Assembly (NCBI GenBank): GCA_021846285.1
Contig: JAJZCB010000010.1
Span: 1 to 63,092 of the forward strand
Reading direction: 5' to 3'
From: Bacillota bacterium
GTDB lineage: Bacteria > Bacillota > Bacilli > Alicyclobacillales > SLC66
Length of the DNA stretch: 63,092 nucleotides
In this document: positions 3,465 through 59,859 of the stretch, one piece after another
Position numbering within the stretch: the stretch's first letter is position 1
Layout of the letters: each line of letters begins with the position of its first letter
Made by a program: the position numbers and the translations under genes
Notes under the pieces: model-generated
The model's input: only the letters and a program-made list of their open reading frames with translations
Told to the model about the DNA's origin: nothing
The model's database searches: none

Positions 3465-4268
3465 TCACTCCCTCAGACAGATAAATCCGCCCTGGCGACC
3501 AGTCACGCCATGATCGCGCCGATGCGAAAAGTAGCCGTCCATGCAACTGGTGCAGACACTCGTATCCAGGATGTGAGCCGAATGGACGCCCAGTGACAGC
3601 AACTCATGGATACAAAGCGTTGGCAAATCAAGCATGACGGCGCCAATGGAACGAGCAGACCGGGGCAGGTCAGGCGCATCTGCATCATGGCTGAAGCGCC
3701 GATACGCAGTTGTCACGGCCCTGATCACTGGCAGATCCACTTCATAGCAGCAGCCGCGAATCGCAGGTCCGATCACCGCCCTGATGTTCATCGGCTCGGC
3801 CCCGAGATCCTCCATGGCGTGGATCGTCGCAGAAACCACACCCTCGGCCGCTCCTCGCCATCCCGCGTGAGCGACGGCGGCCACAGCGCCGCGGGAGTCG
3901 GCCAGCAAGAGCGGAACGCAGTCGGCCGTAAGCACAGCCAGCGCCATGTTTCGTTCCCGTGTGACCATGGCGTCCACACCCGGCAACGCGTCAGCGTGAT
4001 CGAAAGCACCGCGCCCCTCCAGGCGTCGATCTACGACCGCAACCGCCTTTCCATGCACCTGCTGCGCATAGGTGACGCGCGCAGGAGGTATGGACAGGAG
4101 CTTCGCCACAAGCGCGCGATTGTGCAGTACATCCGTTGGCTGATCAGGCACGTGCAGGCCGACATTGAGCGATTCAAAGGAGCCCCTGCTCACGCCGCCG
4201 CGACGACCGGAAAAGCCGCCGTCGACATTGACACCCAACCATTTGCCCACGTTAAGCCACTGCGCCAA
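3465..4268 (-). CDS. pgeF: Peptidoglycan editing factor / polyphenol oxidase family protein (YlmD, PgeF)
   Basis: 267 aa. The family (DUF152, YfiH-like) includes purine nucleoside phosphorylases and the factor that removes mis-incorporated L-serine from lipid II precursors. Metal-ligand motifs are visible: TADCVPLL, HAGWRG and GCCYEV, then SCTSCMDGYFSHRRD-type residues near the C-terminus. TTG 4268 is the likely start because GGAGGTG lies 6 nt upstream. It sits next to yggS in the ylm block. Confidence 0.9.
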   Translation of the reverse strand: MAQWLNVGKWLGVNVDGGFSGRRGGVSRGSFESLNVGLHVPDQPTDVLHNRALVAKLLSIPPARVTYAQQVHGKAVAVVDRRLEGRGAFDHADALPGVDAMVTRERNMALAVLTADCVPLLLADSRGAVAAVAHAGWRGAAEGVVSATIHAMEDLGAEPMNIRAVIGPAIRGCCYEVDLPVIRAVTTAYRRFSHDADAPDLPRSARSIGAVMLDLPTLCIHELLSLGVHSAHILDTSVCTSCMDGYFSHRRDHGVTGRQGGFICLRE

Positions 4269-55656: not shown

Positions 55657-56067
55657 TCACTTGACGGGGGGAATGGTCTTCAGTTGTACCTTATAAGCGC
55701 GCAGCAACCCGAGAAAGTCGTGAAACCAGGGACCGCCGTACGCGACAAGGACCCCGGCCGACACGTAATCCAGACCACTGGCCACCCATTCAGGCTGCAT
55801 GGTGCTCCAAACAGGTGTGAGCTTTAGCATCTGCAGCGGATGTACTTGCGCGATCCCTGCGAGCACCGTTCCATTGGCCCCTGCGAGAAAATGGATGTTG
55901 ACCCTGCGCAATGTCTCCTCATAGATTTCATCCCACTTGCTGTCGTTAGGCTCCGCTTTGGCCTGCAGGTGCAGGAAAGTGATACGCTTCTTCATCTGCT
56001 GCGTCACCGCTTGGGCTCCTGCTGACAGCGCCGCCATGACTGCGACGAACTGCATCAGTTCATCCAC
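55657..56067 (-). CDS. Hypothetical membrane-associated protein
   Basis: 136 aa from GTG 56067, behind GGGGGG. An N-terminal hydrophobic helix (LMQFVAVMAALSAGAQAV) is followed by a basic stretch and a second moderately hydrophobic region (about 85-115). No family recognised. It lies downstream of trpE after a hairpin. Confidence 0.55.
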   Translation of the reverse strand: MDELMQFVAVMAALSAGAQAVTQQMKKRITFLHLQAKAEPNDSKWDEIYEETLRRVNIHFLAGANGTVLAGIAQVHPLQMLKLTPVWSTMQPEWVASGLDYVSAGVLVAYGGPWFHDFLGLLRAYKVQLKTIPPVK

Positions 56068-56128
56068 ATGAATCCCCCCATTCCGGCTTTTGTAGAAGCC
56101 TACGCCGCGCAGATTGTCCGGTAGAACA

Positions 56129-56166
56129 CGCAAGGCGCCCCGATAGTTGCATCAAGGCGCCTTGCG
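56129..56166 (-). terminator. Hairpin after trpE
   Basis: Perfect 11-bp arms (56129-56139 with 56156-56166), 29 bp downstream of the trpE stop. Few T residues follow, so it is a weak terminator or a stabilising hairpin. Confidence 0.5.
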
Positions 56167-56194: not shown

Positions 56195-57622
56195 TTAGAG
56201 AATTGTCGCCCGCAGAGCTCCCAGCTTATGATCACACTCCCGCCATTCCTGGCCGGGATCGGAATCTGCCACGATGCCTGCACCGGCCTGCAAGTACGTC
56301 ACTCCATTCTGATGAACCACTGTACGGATCACAATGGCGGTGTCGATATTGCCAAAACAGTCGAACATCCCGATCACGCCTCCGTACGGACCGCGCCTGA
56401 ATTCCTCAAGCTCGTCAATGATCTCCATCGCACGCACTTTTGGCGCTCCGCTCAAGGTGCCAGCCGGAAATGTCGAGAGAAAGACCTCAAATGGACTGAC
56501 GCCCGGTCTCAGCTTTGCCGTCACGAGTGACACCAGGTGAAATACATGGGAGTACTCCTCGATTTGCAACAGTTGGGCCACTTCAACCGTTCCCGGCGCC
56601 GCGATGCGACCGAGGTCATTGCGGCACAGATCGACAAGCATGACATGCTCTGCGCGTTCCTTGGGATCGCGCAGTAAGTCCTCCATCAGCTTCAGATTCT
56701 GCTCGGGCGTTTTGCCTTTGCCTTTGGATGTACCCGCTATCGGTTTCATTTGCGCTATTCCCTGATCAACCCGCACCTGCATCTCCGGGCTCGCGCCAAA
56801 GATCAGGTACGATCCATAGTGGGCGTAGAACATATACGGTGAAGGGTTCATCGCCCGTAAGCGCCCATATACCTCCAGAGTATCGATGTCGCCGAGGATC
56901 CGCATGCGCTTTGATATGACGCACTGAAATACATCTCCGGCGCGAATGTATTCTTTGGTGCGTAAAATACGGCCCACGTAGTCCTCGTACGACACGTCCT
57001 CATGTACTTGCAGCGCATTCTTGTCATAGCCTTCAAATACTGGCGGGCCGTCCTTGGCCAGATTGACCAACCGCTCAATCGCCTCCAGGCCAGGTCCGTC
57101 CACACCCTCGAAATAGTGAATGTAAAGATCCATGCGCTCCGGAGTAATATGCATGACGATACGATGGATTTGCAGATGAAAATCGTCGACTGCCCTATCG
57201 TCCTCTGTGGTGTCGGGAATATCCTCAAAATAGCGGATGCAGTCATACCCGAAAAAGCCCAAAAATCCGAACGCGTGAGCGGGCAGATCGGGTTCCGGGG
57301 CAAACGCCTGCATGACGGCGTCAAGCTTTTGCGGCAGTTCCTTCCCGATAGAGTGCACTGGAGACAGCCCGATCCCGGACAACACGCTGTCGTGCCCTGC
57401 GATCGTCATCCGATCGCCCTTGCCCCGAGCAGACAAAACAGGAAACAACCCTATGATCGAGGAACAGTATGCGCTCTTGGAATCAGTCACGGAGTCCAGT
57501 AGAAATCCCTGTTCTGGACCGTATTCCCGTACAAACGCTGTAAAAAAGGAGAATGCCTCAGCCTGTGCGGGAAATTGGTAACGGGCTGTTCGAACCCTCA
57601 ATGGCGCTGCCACCCTAGTCAT
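56195..57622 (-). CDS. trpE: Anthranilate synthase component I (TrpE)
   Basis: 475 aa. Converts chorismate to anthranilate with ammonia from TrpG. The motif MKPIAGT has Ala where aminodeoxychorismate synthase has Lys (PIKGT), which favours TrpE over PabB. LVDLCRNDLGRIA and STFPAGTLSGAPKVRAMEIIDELE are conserved catalytic segments. The ATG overlaps trpG by 4 nt. The other trp genes are not in the window, so trpG-trpE is a separate unit. Confidence 0.88.
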   Translation of the reverse strand: MTRVAAPLRVRTARYQFPAQAEAFSFFTAFVREYGPEQGFLLDSVTDSKSAYCSSIIGLFPVLSARGKGDRMTIAGHDSVLSGIGLSPVHSIGKELPQKLDAVMQAFAPEPDLPAHAFGFLGFFGYDCIRYFEDIPDTTEDDRAVDDFHLQIHRIVMHITPERMDLYIHYFEGVDGPGLEAIERLVNLAKDGPPVFEGYDKNALQVHEDVSYEDYVGRILRTKEYIRAGDVFQCVISKRMRILGDIDTLEVYGRLRAMNPSPYMFYAHYGSYLIFGASPEMQVRVDQGIAQMKPIAGTSKGKGKTPEQNLKLMEDLLRDPKERAEHVMLVDLCRNDLGRIAAPGTVEVAQLLQIEEYSHVFHLVSLVTAKLRPGVSPFEVFLSTFPAGTLSGAPKVRAMEIIDELEEFRRGPYGGVIGMFDCFGNIDTAIVIRTVVHQNGVTYLQAGAGIVADSDPGQEWRECDHKLGALRATIL

Positions 57623-58251
57623 TGCCGCACCCCCGTAACGACAGGCGCAGTGTCGACTGTTCCGGTCGGAGACTCAATTTCACCAGCGATGGCAAGGAAG
57701 TTTTCGATCATTTCATGGCCGAATTCAGTCAATACTGCTTCTGGGTGAAACTGTACGCCAAACACGGGGTACTCACGATGTTGTACAGCCATCATCAACC
57801 CATTGTCTGCGCGAGCCGTCACTCGTAGACATGCAGGCATATGTTCCGGTGAAATGACCAATGAGTGATATCTGGTGGCGTAAAACGCGGACGATATGCC
57901 TCTGAAAAGTGGTGAGGTGCCGTCCTGGCGAATCAGCGAGACCTTGCCGTGCATGATCTCGCCAGCTCGTACAATGGTTGCGCCAAACGCCTGACCGATG
58001 GATTGGTGCCCCAGACATACCCCGAGAATAGGAATATCTGTATACAATGCAGTCACCGTTGCTACCGAAATTCCCGCTTCATCCGGCGTGCAAGGCCCCG
58101 GTGAGATGACAATGCCTCTCGGCTTCATGGCTGCAATCTCATCCACGGTCGTTTCATCATTGCGGTAAACTTTAACATCGGCTCCAGCCATAAGCATGTA
58201 CTGGACCAAATTGAATGTAAAGGAATCATAGTTGTCGATCACGACAATCAT
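57619..58251 (-). CDS. trpG: Anthranilate/aminodeoxychorismate synthase glutamine amidotransferase (TrpG/PabA)
   Basis: 210 aa. Class I amidotransferase. The nucleophile is in GVCLGHQSIGQAFG, the oxyanion region in SPGPCTPDEAG, and His/Glu in FGVQFHPEAV. In Bacillus one such subunit serves both tryptophan and folate synthesis, which may apply here. The gene is first in the operon, behind a leader with a terminator and (G/U)AG repeats. Confidence 0.92.
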   Translation of the reverse strand: MIVVIDNYDSFTFNLVQYMLMAGADVKVYRNDETTVDEIAAMKPRGIVISPGPCTPDEAGISVATVTALYTDIPILGVCLGHQSIGQAFGATIVRAGEIMHGKVSLIRQDGTSPLFRGISSAFYATRYHSLVISPEHMPACLRVTARADNGLMMAVQHREYPVFGVQFHPEAVLTEFGHEMIENFLAIAGEIESPTGTVDTAPVVTGVRQ

Positions 58252-58285
58252 CCCGGCATTCCGCCTTTGCTACTAAAATGGAAAC

Positions 58286-58313
58286 AAAAAAACCACTGCC
58301 GGTTCCGTCGTGG
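58286..58313 (-). terminator. Leader terminator of the trpG-trpE operon
   Basis: On the minus strand the hairpin 58313-58293 (CCAC...CGG AA CCG...GTGG) is followed by seven T residues (58292-58286), 35 bp before the trpG start. Its position upstream of the gene marks an attenuator. Confidence 0.75.
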
Positions 58314-58369
58314 TCGAGTGTGCCCAAACCATGCGCAATGTACACGCTTGGTGACAGGCTCCTGTGTGG

Positions 58370-58407
58370 CTATGCTCAACTCGCCTCAACTAAATCGGAC
58401 TCTGCTC
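58370..58407 (-). promoter_or_regulatory. TRAP-type (G/U)AG repeat site in the trpG-trpE leader
   Basis: Read on the minus strand, triplets start at 58407, 58402, 58397, 58392, 58387, 58382, 58377 and 58372: GAG, GAG, CGA, TAG, GAG, GAG, GAG, TAG. Seven of eight are GAG or UAG, all with 2-nt spacers. This is the signature of the tryptophan-activated RNA-binding protein TRAP (MtrB). Confidence 0.8.
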
Positions 58408-58444
58408 AGCCGGCATCGCTGCTTGACGCCGCGCTATAGGTGTG

Positions 58445-58473
58445 AGTCTAACGCAGTAACCGGATATTGTCAA
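58445..58473 (-). promoter_or_regulatory. Promoter of the trpG-trpE operon
   Basis: Minus strand: TTGACA (58473-58468), 17-bp spacer, TAGACT (58450-58445). Transcription would start near 58438, about 30 nt before the (G/U)AG repeats. Confidence 0.8.
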
Positions 58474-58597
58474 TACTCATTTTCCATACTCAGCTTCCAT
58501 GAGGTGTTGTCCACTTCCGATAATTTAGACCCCACGTTACAAATGCCGTCGCTCGATTCTGACGTTTCTCATATAACATCAAGGTGAGAAGATCACC

Positions 58598-59859
58598 GTG
58601 GGGCCGATACACCGGAACTTGCCGATTGGTATTCGAAAACGTCCGAAGGAAGGGATGGATGTTCAGGTGACAAAACCCCCAAGCATCAAGAAGCGACCTA
58701 AGAAATTGAGCAGACCAGGCGCACGCTGCTGTACACTGATCATTAACAAGAACATTGTCAAATGTGGGCGTGTGAAATGCCGAAGGCATGGACCTCGCGG
58801 ACCTCGCGGACCTCGGGGACCTGCCGGACCTCCTGGACCTCCACCCCCTTGTGGAATGCCGTCCTGTCGATGGGTCGAGAGTCCAAATGACCCGTGCTAC
58901 TCCCCTTCCACACAGGCGTATTATCAGACGGTGCGTTATAGGGCCGACGGGTTTGCTCCTTTTGGTCCGTTCGCGTTCTACAAAATGTGGTACGACTTTG
59001 CCAGTACTGGCGGAATTGCTGTGGCCTCCTCTGCAAATGGGATCAACTGGACTTTTCGGGCTTATGTTACCGGGCTGATATCGACATCTCGGCATTCCAG
59101 GATTTTATTTGACCCAGATGGGTTTGGCATGGGGGTGCCATACAGGATTTGGTATTGGGATTCGGCCTATCTTTATGTGGATGATGCTACCGTACTTCGC
59201 ATGCTCCGAACTGCCAATTCTGTCGACGGGATCAATTGGACCAATGACACCCCTCTCACTCAAGATACGGCCCCCCCTTTGCTGACTCCTTTTCCGGCTT
59301 ATAACAGGGGGAGTTATGGACCTGCAGATGTTTTGTACTTCCCGGATAATCCTCCGGTTCTTGATCCGGTCAAGGCATTTAATAATCGATACGTCATGTA
59401 CTACAACATTACTGATGGATCGACTGAGCAACTGGCGCTGGCTGTGTCCGTCGATGGTGTATTCTGGAGAAAGGCAGGCCCTTTAGCTGTACTTCCGACA
59501 GGCAGTTCCGGCTCATGGGACGAAAATTACGCTACCGAGCACGCTGTGGTACTCGCCTGACAGCGAGCAACTTCATGATGTGGTACAGCGGAGGAAGAGC
59601 AAGTTCCCATGAAGGAATCGGCTCCGCGTCATCCGTGGATGGGGTAAATTGGGTAAAATTCTCCGGAAATCCGATATTCAGCATTAACGATGGTGTTCTG
59701 TGGAGAAATGAACGCACGCATGACCCTTGGGTATTGTTTGATTCCTTAAGATTCAGCGGTCATGGCGATTCAGTCTGCTTCAAGTTTTGGATGACCGGCG
59801 CCCCGACCGCAGCTCCCGCGAATATTAGTGTAGGTTACGCCACCAATTTACTGGGATAA
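58598..59859 (+). pseudogene. Collagen-like / beta-propeller surface protein, frameshifted
   Basis: A basic, Cys-rich N-terminus leads to six collagen triplets (GPRGPRGPRGPAGPPGPP), then CGMPSC and a repeat domain. In it SxxGxxW-type units recur (SSANGINW, NSVDGINW, SVDGVFW and, in the next frame, SSVDGVNW), as in five-bladed propellers of GH43-like or related lectin-like proteins. The first frame stops at 59560 and the fold continues in another frame to 59859; adding one C near 59557 restores it. Collagen-like proteins in spore formers often coat the exosporium, so a spore-surface role is plausible. GTG 58598 or ATG 58655 could start it. Confidence 0.65.

Follow-up and report, generated by a model that had tools for sequence, protein, structure and literature searches.

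A predicted TRAP-controlled attenuator in front of a trpG-first trpG–trpE operon in an uncultured relative of Bacillus, with further candidate TRAP targets

The trpG–trpE leader found in the window (by which we mean the whole 63,092-nucleotide stretch of DNA analysed here) raises the question of whether TRAP, the product of mtrB, controls anthranilate synthase in this uncultured relative of Bacillus, and if so by what means. The first-pass annotation had proposed a leader laid out like the B. subtilis trp leader, acting by transcription attenuation on trpG–trpE alone. Modelled folds and comparison with relatives lead us to regard it as very probably a TRAP-controlled transcription attenuator, and the remaining trp pathway genes and one methyltransferase gene of the same genome seem to be under TRAP control as well.

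The operon consists of trpG followed by trpE, with the trpE start overlapping the trpG stop codon by 4 nt (Table 1). No second gene of the trpG/pabA type was seen in the genome (the other listed matches to the trpG profile are weak and belong to ORFs 522 and 349 codons long, lengths that would suit GuaA and CarA). The best profile for TrpE is trpE_most, and the protein is somewhat divergent as its score is below the equivalog cut-off of 517.7 bits. Just two chorismate-binding enzymes were found in the genome (contigs C83 and C58), TrpE and a MenF-like one adjoining a MenE-like one, and no separate PabB or PabA was seen there. A small ORF 3′ of trpE (55657–56133, minus strand), which gave no Pfam or NCBIfam match above cut-off, recurs at the equivalent position in eight other genomes of its family, referred to here as f1, with 64–98% identity and may be part of the operon. 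Where contig coverage allows, relatives likewise have trpG–trpE followed by this ORF and not by trpD (the contig of G002 ends inside trpG). On the other side, the intergenic region holding the trpG leader is common with a divergent ORF (58598–59560, plus strand) that includes a collagen-like GPRGPRGPRGPAGPPGPP stretch.

Table 1. Positions of the operon, its leader elements and the other candidate TRAP sites (window coordinates unless a locus is given).
Feature	Position	Strand	Remarks
trpG, anthranilate synthase glutamine amidotransferase	57619..58251	-	210 aa; TIGR00566, 238 bits; Pfam GATase
trpE, anthranilate synthase component I	56195..57622	-	475 aa; TIGR00564, 412.7 bits; Pfam Chorismate_bind and Anth_synt_I_N
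Sigma-70-type promoter TTGACA-17-TAGACT	58445..58473	-	TTGACA 58473-58468, spacer 17 nt, TAGACT 58450-58445
5′ stem-loop GGCGUC-AAGCAGC-GAUGCC	58412..58430	-	Just 5′ of the triplets; predicted in free and masked folds
TRAP-type site GAG GAG (CGA) UAG GAG GAG GAG UAG	58370..58407	-	Spacers all 2 nt
Triplets, 5-nt slots 1-4	GAG 58407-58405, GAG 58402-58400, (CGA 58397-58395), UAG 58392-58390	-	
Triplets, 5-nt slots 5-8	GAG 58387-58385, GAG 58382-58380, GAG 58377-58375, UAG 58372-58370	-	
Antiterminator 5′ arm, UCCG 58399-58396 and GUUGAG 58390-58385	58385..58399	-	MFE fold; inside the triplet array
Antiterminator 3′ arm, CUCGAC 58318-58313 and CGGA 58307-58304	58304..58318	-	Overlaps the terminator 5′ arm, 58314-58310
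Terminator hairpin ACCAC 58314-58310 / GUGGU 58296-58292, with U7 58292-58286	58286..58314	-	Predicted fold; bulged
Methyltransferase triplets (candidate TRAP site)	C93, L015:3993-4039 (4007-4039)		Seven, strict 5-nt register, straddling the start of ORF L015:4020-4769
Fused trpE-trpG	L284, L285, L286, L288 (G006, G007, G014, G008)		~730-745 codons; sister genera; triplets over the start

The leader has the parts that had been read from it. The promoter is present, and relatives whose contigs extend that far keep it at the same place as TTGAC(A/G/T)-17-TA(T/G)NNT; transcription would begin near 58438 on the minus strand. The array of (G/U)AG triplets described earlier as beginning about 30 nt into the transcript is also there, starting at about +32 from this putative start, with seven of eight consecutive 5-nt slots filled (the slot reading CGA is the missing one) and a possible eighth triplet, GAG 58361–58359, two slots beyond. 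The terminator with its seven U residues precedes trpG as claimed; a simple terminator scan missed it, probably because of the internal bulges in the hairpin.

The genome also encodes the regulator, and the search for mtrB that had been suggested as a check found the gene at C14:3463–3666 (PF02081, 120.5 bits). Over its whole length the predicted protein can be aligned to TRAP structures, 1c9s among them, and it keeps the equivalents of K37, K56 and R58 (B. subtilis numbering), which we take to be the basic RNA-contact residues of B. subtilis TRAP. The genes 3′ of mtrB resemble hepS and menG, presumably the gene order of B. subtilis too, and mtrB was found in 56 of the 61 genomes searched, this one included. 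The companion search for the anti-TRAP gene rtpA (PF15777) detected nothing in this genome or in any other of family f1; by our tally, PF15777 occurs in five genomes outside f1, with four or five of these being members of the sister family f2 scoring above cut-off. Anti-TRAP is not a defining feature of the TRAP attenuator itself.

An antiterminator overlapping 58370–58407 had been anticipated, and it is the predicted minimum free energy fold of the whole free leader, in which part of the triplet segment (UCCG…GUUGAG) pairs with CUCGAC…CGGA just 5′ of the terminator. We compared the predicted probability of the terminator, P(terminator), in the free leader and in a leader where the triplet segment was masked from pairing as if bound by TRAP, noting that such folding is thermodynamic and ignores both the co-transcriptional order of events and TRAP itself. 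With the mask, P(terminator) of the window leader rose from 0.12 to 0.98, and the switch was clear in 6 of the 10 leaders, namely the window and five relatives (G001, 0.03 to 0.98; G002, 0.18 to 0.94; G004, 0.23 to 0.99; G011, 0.00 to 0.90; G003, 0.01 to 1.00). The comparison did not show it in G016, G012, G005 (a truncated contig) and G009, where P(terminator) was more or less unchanged, low or falling. When the triplet segment of the window leader alone was shuffled, the mean free P(terminator) was 0.69, and the triplet segment therefore suppresses the terminator specifically in these predictions.

The mechanism we propose would work as follows. When tryptophan is scarce, TRAP would not be bound, leaving the triplet segment free to form the antiterminator with the segment just 5′ of the terminator, and RNA polymerase would read into trpG–trpE. 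When it is plentiful, the leader would wrap its (G/U)AG triplets around the TRAP–tryptophan ring and the antiterminator would be blocked, so that the U7 hairpin would form and transcription would stop about 35 nt before trpG. The 5′ stem-loop directly before the triplets would probably aid TRAP binding, as is thought for B. subtilis. What we observed is the anatomy of the leader, an mtrB gene in the genome, folds that compete in silico, and the retention of sites and pairings in relatives; TRAP binding, its dependence on tryptophan, termination itself and the part played by the stem-loop are inferred.

This retention was followed in nine other f1 genomes with a stand-alone trpG (55–97% TrpG identity), all nine of which have the same order of triplets, hairpin with U tract, and trpG. 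The 5-nt register of the triplets, whose loss in close relatives would have counted against TRAP control, is kept by relatives of the same genus and by other f1 genera with diverged leaders. Substitutions between the window leader and those of the same genus spare the triplets, bar a U/G change at the first position of one, and an alignment of ten leaders has 11 invariant columns 5′ of the terminator, every one of them part of a triplet; the hypergeometric value calculated for this takes no account of relatedness among the genomes. The core pairing of the antiterminator is kept in 10/10 leaders although bases have been substituted, in some cases in both partners of a pair. Pairing in the 5′ stem-loop is kept in all but one cell of the comparison, and several of its pairs have both bases replaced (the stem-loop arms were placed by hand for this count because MAFFT misaligned the stem-loops of two genera). 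Together with mtrB and the competing folds, this conservation supports the B. subtilis-like layout that had been recognised.

How TRAP would act once bound deserves more discussion. There are only seven, or perhaps eight, triplets compared with the 11 of B. subtilis, and the hairpin is bulged and weak, which speak against attenuation, though the attenuators of B. subtilis and B. halodurans are also weak (PMC3913778). TRAP might bind the leader and yet act chiefly by hairpin-independent termination, or by making the ribosome site of trpG more or less accessible once transcription has read through. Layouts other than the attenuator do occur in close neighbours. Triplets run up to and over the trpG ribosome site with no U tract in several f2 genomes, other f2 trpG genes have an upstream array and a U tract, and five f1 members without a matching stand-alone trpG carry a fused trpE–trpG frame, with four to six in-register triplets at the start of the gene in three of the five and a weaker set in a fourth. 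These ribosome-site and start-codon layouts indicate that the mode of TRAP action does switch, and in the window fold the 3′-side segment of the terminator can itself pair near the trpG start. However, that pairing is not kept in all relatives, and the f1 sites lie some 86–166 nt 5′ of trpG with the order of triplets, antiterminator arm and terminator maintained. We therefore consider action chiefly by these other means to be unlikely for the trpG–trpE leader, and the earlier argument from the distance of the sites to transcription attenuation is borne out by the antiterminator and terminator folds and the order kept in f1.

Control by a leader of another class, such as a T-box or one that responds to some other tRNA or a metabolite, with the triplets being incidental, is very improbable. 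Trp genes of Gram-positive bacteria commonly have T-boxes, as does trpS in this genome (L015:2510–2865, with the specifier read as UGG from the alignment), but an Rfam scan of 58000–58900 gave no match at any E-value up to 5, so there is no recognisable T-box at trpG–trpE, and the invariant columns are concentrated in the triplets.

The 7/8-slot array occurs only once in the 63-kb window on either strand, and among 300 dinucleotide shuffles of the window (600 strands) eight reached 5/8 slots and none reached 6/8. That the array could be an accidental purine-rich run, with the operon behind it expressed constitutively and the terminator there by coincidence, has almost no probability left, as runs of four triplets do arise in this genome at chance level (no more commonly than with a reversed control pattern, and several without a plausible target) but the array goes beyond what the shuffles produced and its conservation across genera at 55–69% TrpG identity refutes such an origin. 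Other matches of four to five triplets in the genome (contigs C12, C30, C52, C58 and C115) were judged to be chance or left undecided. One of these on C30, with five triplets in 5–7 nt steps about 20 nt 5′ of a GrpB-like ORF (L019:2041–2066), is either chance or a further site.

The preferred reading of a TRAP attenuator at trpG–trpE stands with two amendments, one being that anti-TRAP was not detected in this genome or its family. The other is that TRAP control does not seem to be confined to trpG–trpE: trpD, trpC, trpF and trpB, which are on a different contig (C122), appear to carry a TRAP-type attenuator of their own. In f1 the trpD leader (L118, about 70–190 nt before trpD, with the relatives L119–L134) contains triplets such as UAGcgUGAGCgGAGcaGAGcuGAG and three arms: CCUUAGU upstream, GUUCACG..ACUAAGG in the middle and, ahead of U residues, CCUUAGUU downstream. 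The two outer arms duplicate each other, so that either could serve as partner for the middle one, and this A/B/C arrangement, as read from the sequence, is classic for an attenuator. No switch appeared in equilibrium folds of the trpD leaders, with the terminator forming masked or unmasked in most, and for this reason the suggested attenuator rests on the duplicated arms and the conserved triplets. TRAP control of trpDCFB is thus likely, with less support than at trpG–trpE. The duplicated arms were seen to read CCUUAGU/CCUUGGU. A T-box was at first suspected on the trpD leaders from a GGGTGG-like stretch and was rejected; there was no match, with the triplets and the A/B/C arms found instead.

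A genome-wide pattern search turned up a second strict array, GAGacGAGaaGAGauGAGcaGAGaaGAGauGAG, where a class I methyltransferase gene begins; this gene follows trpS directly. The methyltransferase gene is present in 55 of the 399 genomes of our class sample, and by comparing lists we find mtrB in 50 of these 55 compared with 273 of the 399 overall. Triplets around the methyltransferase start scored 4.5 or more in 34 of 49 scored genomes with mtrB and in one of five without it (Fisher 0.047, to be read with the mtrB-less genomes numbering only five and the genomes being related), and in 1/1412 background windows from the methyltransferase loci. The exception without mtrB is G216, a fragmented genome from whose assembly the gene may be missing. 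The neighbours of the methyltransferase gene differ between genera, and in G045 an anti-TRAP gene lies directly 5′ of it (G045:C1:2981403–2982347; L109, L176), with six in-register triplets just before the ATG. The slot directly behind rtpA is, we believe, that of ycbK in B. subtilis, and the G045 pair resembles rtpA–ycbK in this.

Taken with the anthranilate synthase layouts, these sites make it likely, as far as comparison of sequences can tell, that TRAP represses translation of class I methyltransferases in many Bacilli, with a regulon reaching beyond tryptophan synthesis and transport, and that in this clade the control of anthranilate synthase has changed between attenuation and blocking of the start codon. 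The methyltransferase sites suggest that TRAP has a target unconnected with tryptophan synthesis in mtrB-bearing Bacilli, culturable ones included, and our literature search found no paper on a TRAP target of the methyltransferase type. TRAP control of anthranilate synthase is predicted to persist while its mode changes, and the three layouts (attenuator, ribosome-site cover and fused-gene start-codon site) therefore form a natural series within the clade, in which one could ask how a single RNA-binding ring retains control as the mode changes and what the minimum number of triplets is. We also observed that the f2 trpG leaders L042, L045, L048 and L049, in addition to triplets and a U tract, can form a hairpin (for example UUCAGCUC..GAGCUGAA) where the ribosome site of trpG lies; by analogy with the B. 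subtilis trpE ribosome-site hairpin, this could be a second, translational layer.

Our literature search found no paper describing TRAP attenuation of a trpG-first two-gene operon, and the closest known system is the B. subtilis trpEDCFBA leader, with its 5′ stem-loop, antiterminator and competing weak attenuator (PMC3913778). The leader described here is like it in having a 5′ stem-loop, short-spaced (G/U)AG triplets, an antiterminator over the triplets, a competing terminator and mtrB in the genome, and the modelled switch matches the published mechanism (PMC3913778, PMC11255114). It differs in governing trpG–trpE only with trpG first, in having seven to eight triplets rather than 11 and an uninterrupted U7, and in a genome where trpDCFB is on a second TRAP-type attenuator and anti-TRAP was not detected; in family f1 the trp genes would thus form two separate units, both behind a TRAP-type attenuator, with no detectable anti-TRAP. 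In B. subtilis, according to the part of PMC11255114 that cites Du 1997, TRAP covers the ribosome site of trpG (pabA) and blocks translation; trpG is the target in both cases, but the window sites are more than 100 nt upstream and behind a terminator, with the ribosome-site layout seen in some f2 genomes. The methyltransferase sites are like the TRAP sites of B. subtilis ycbK and trpP in being at the translation start (PMC11255114), and differ in belonging to another gene, one that adjoins trpS in the genus of the window genome and lies behind rtpA in G045. Finally, trp T-box leaders such as that of trpS share a choice between terminator and antiterminator tied to the supply of tryptophan, but they sense tRNA-Trp without a triplet array, and none was detected at trpG–trpE. 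In comparison with these systems, the trpG–trpE leader is a predicted TRAP attenuator in a new arrangement rather than a new mechanism.
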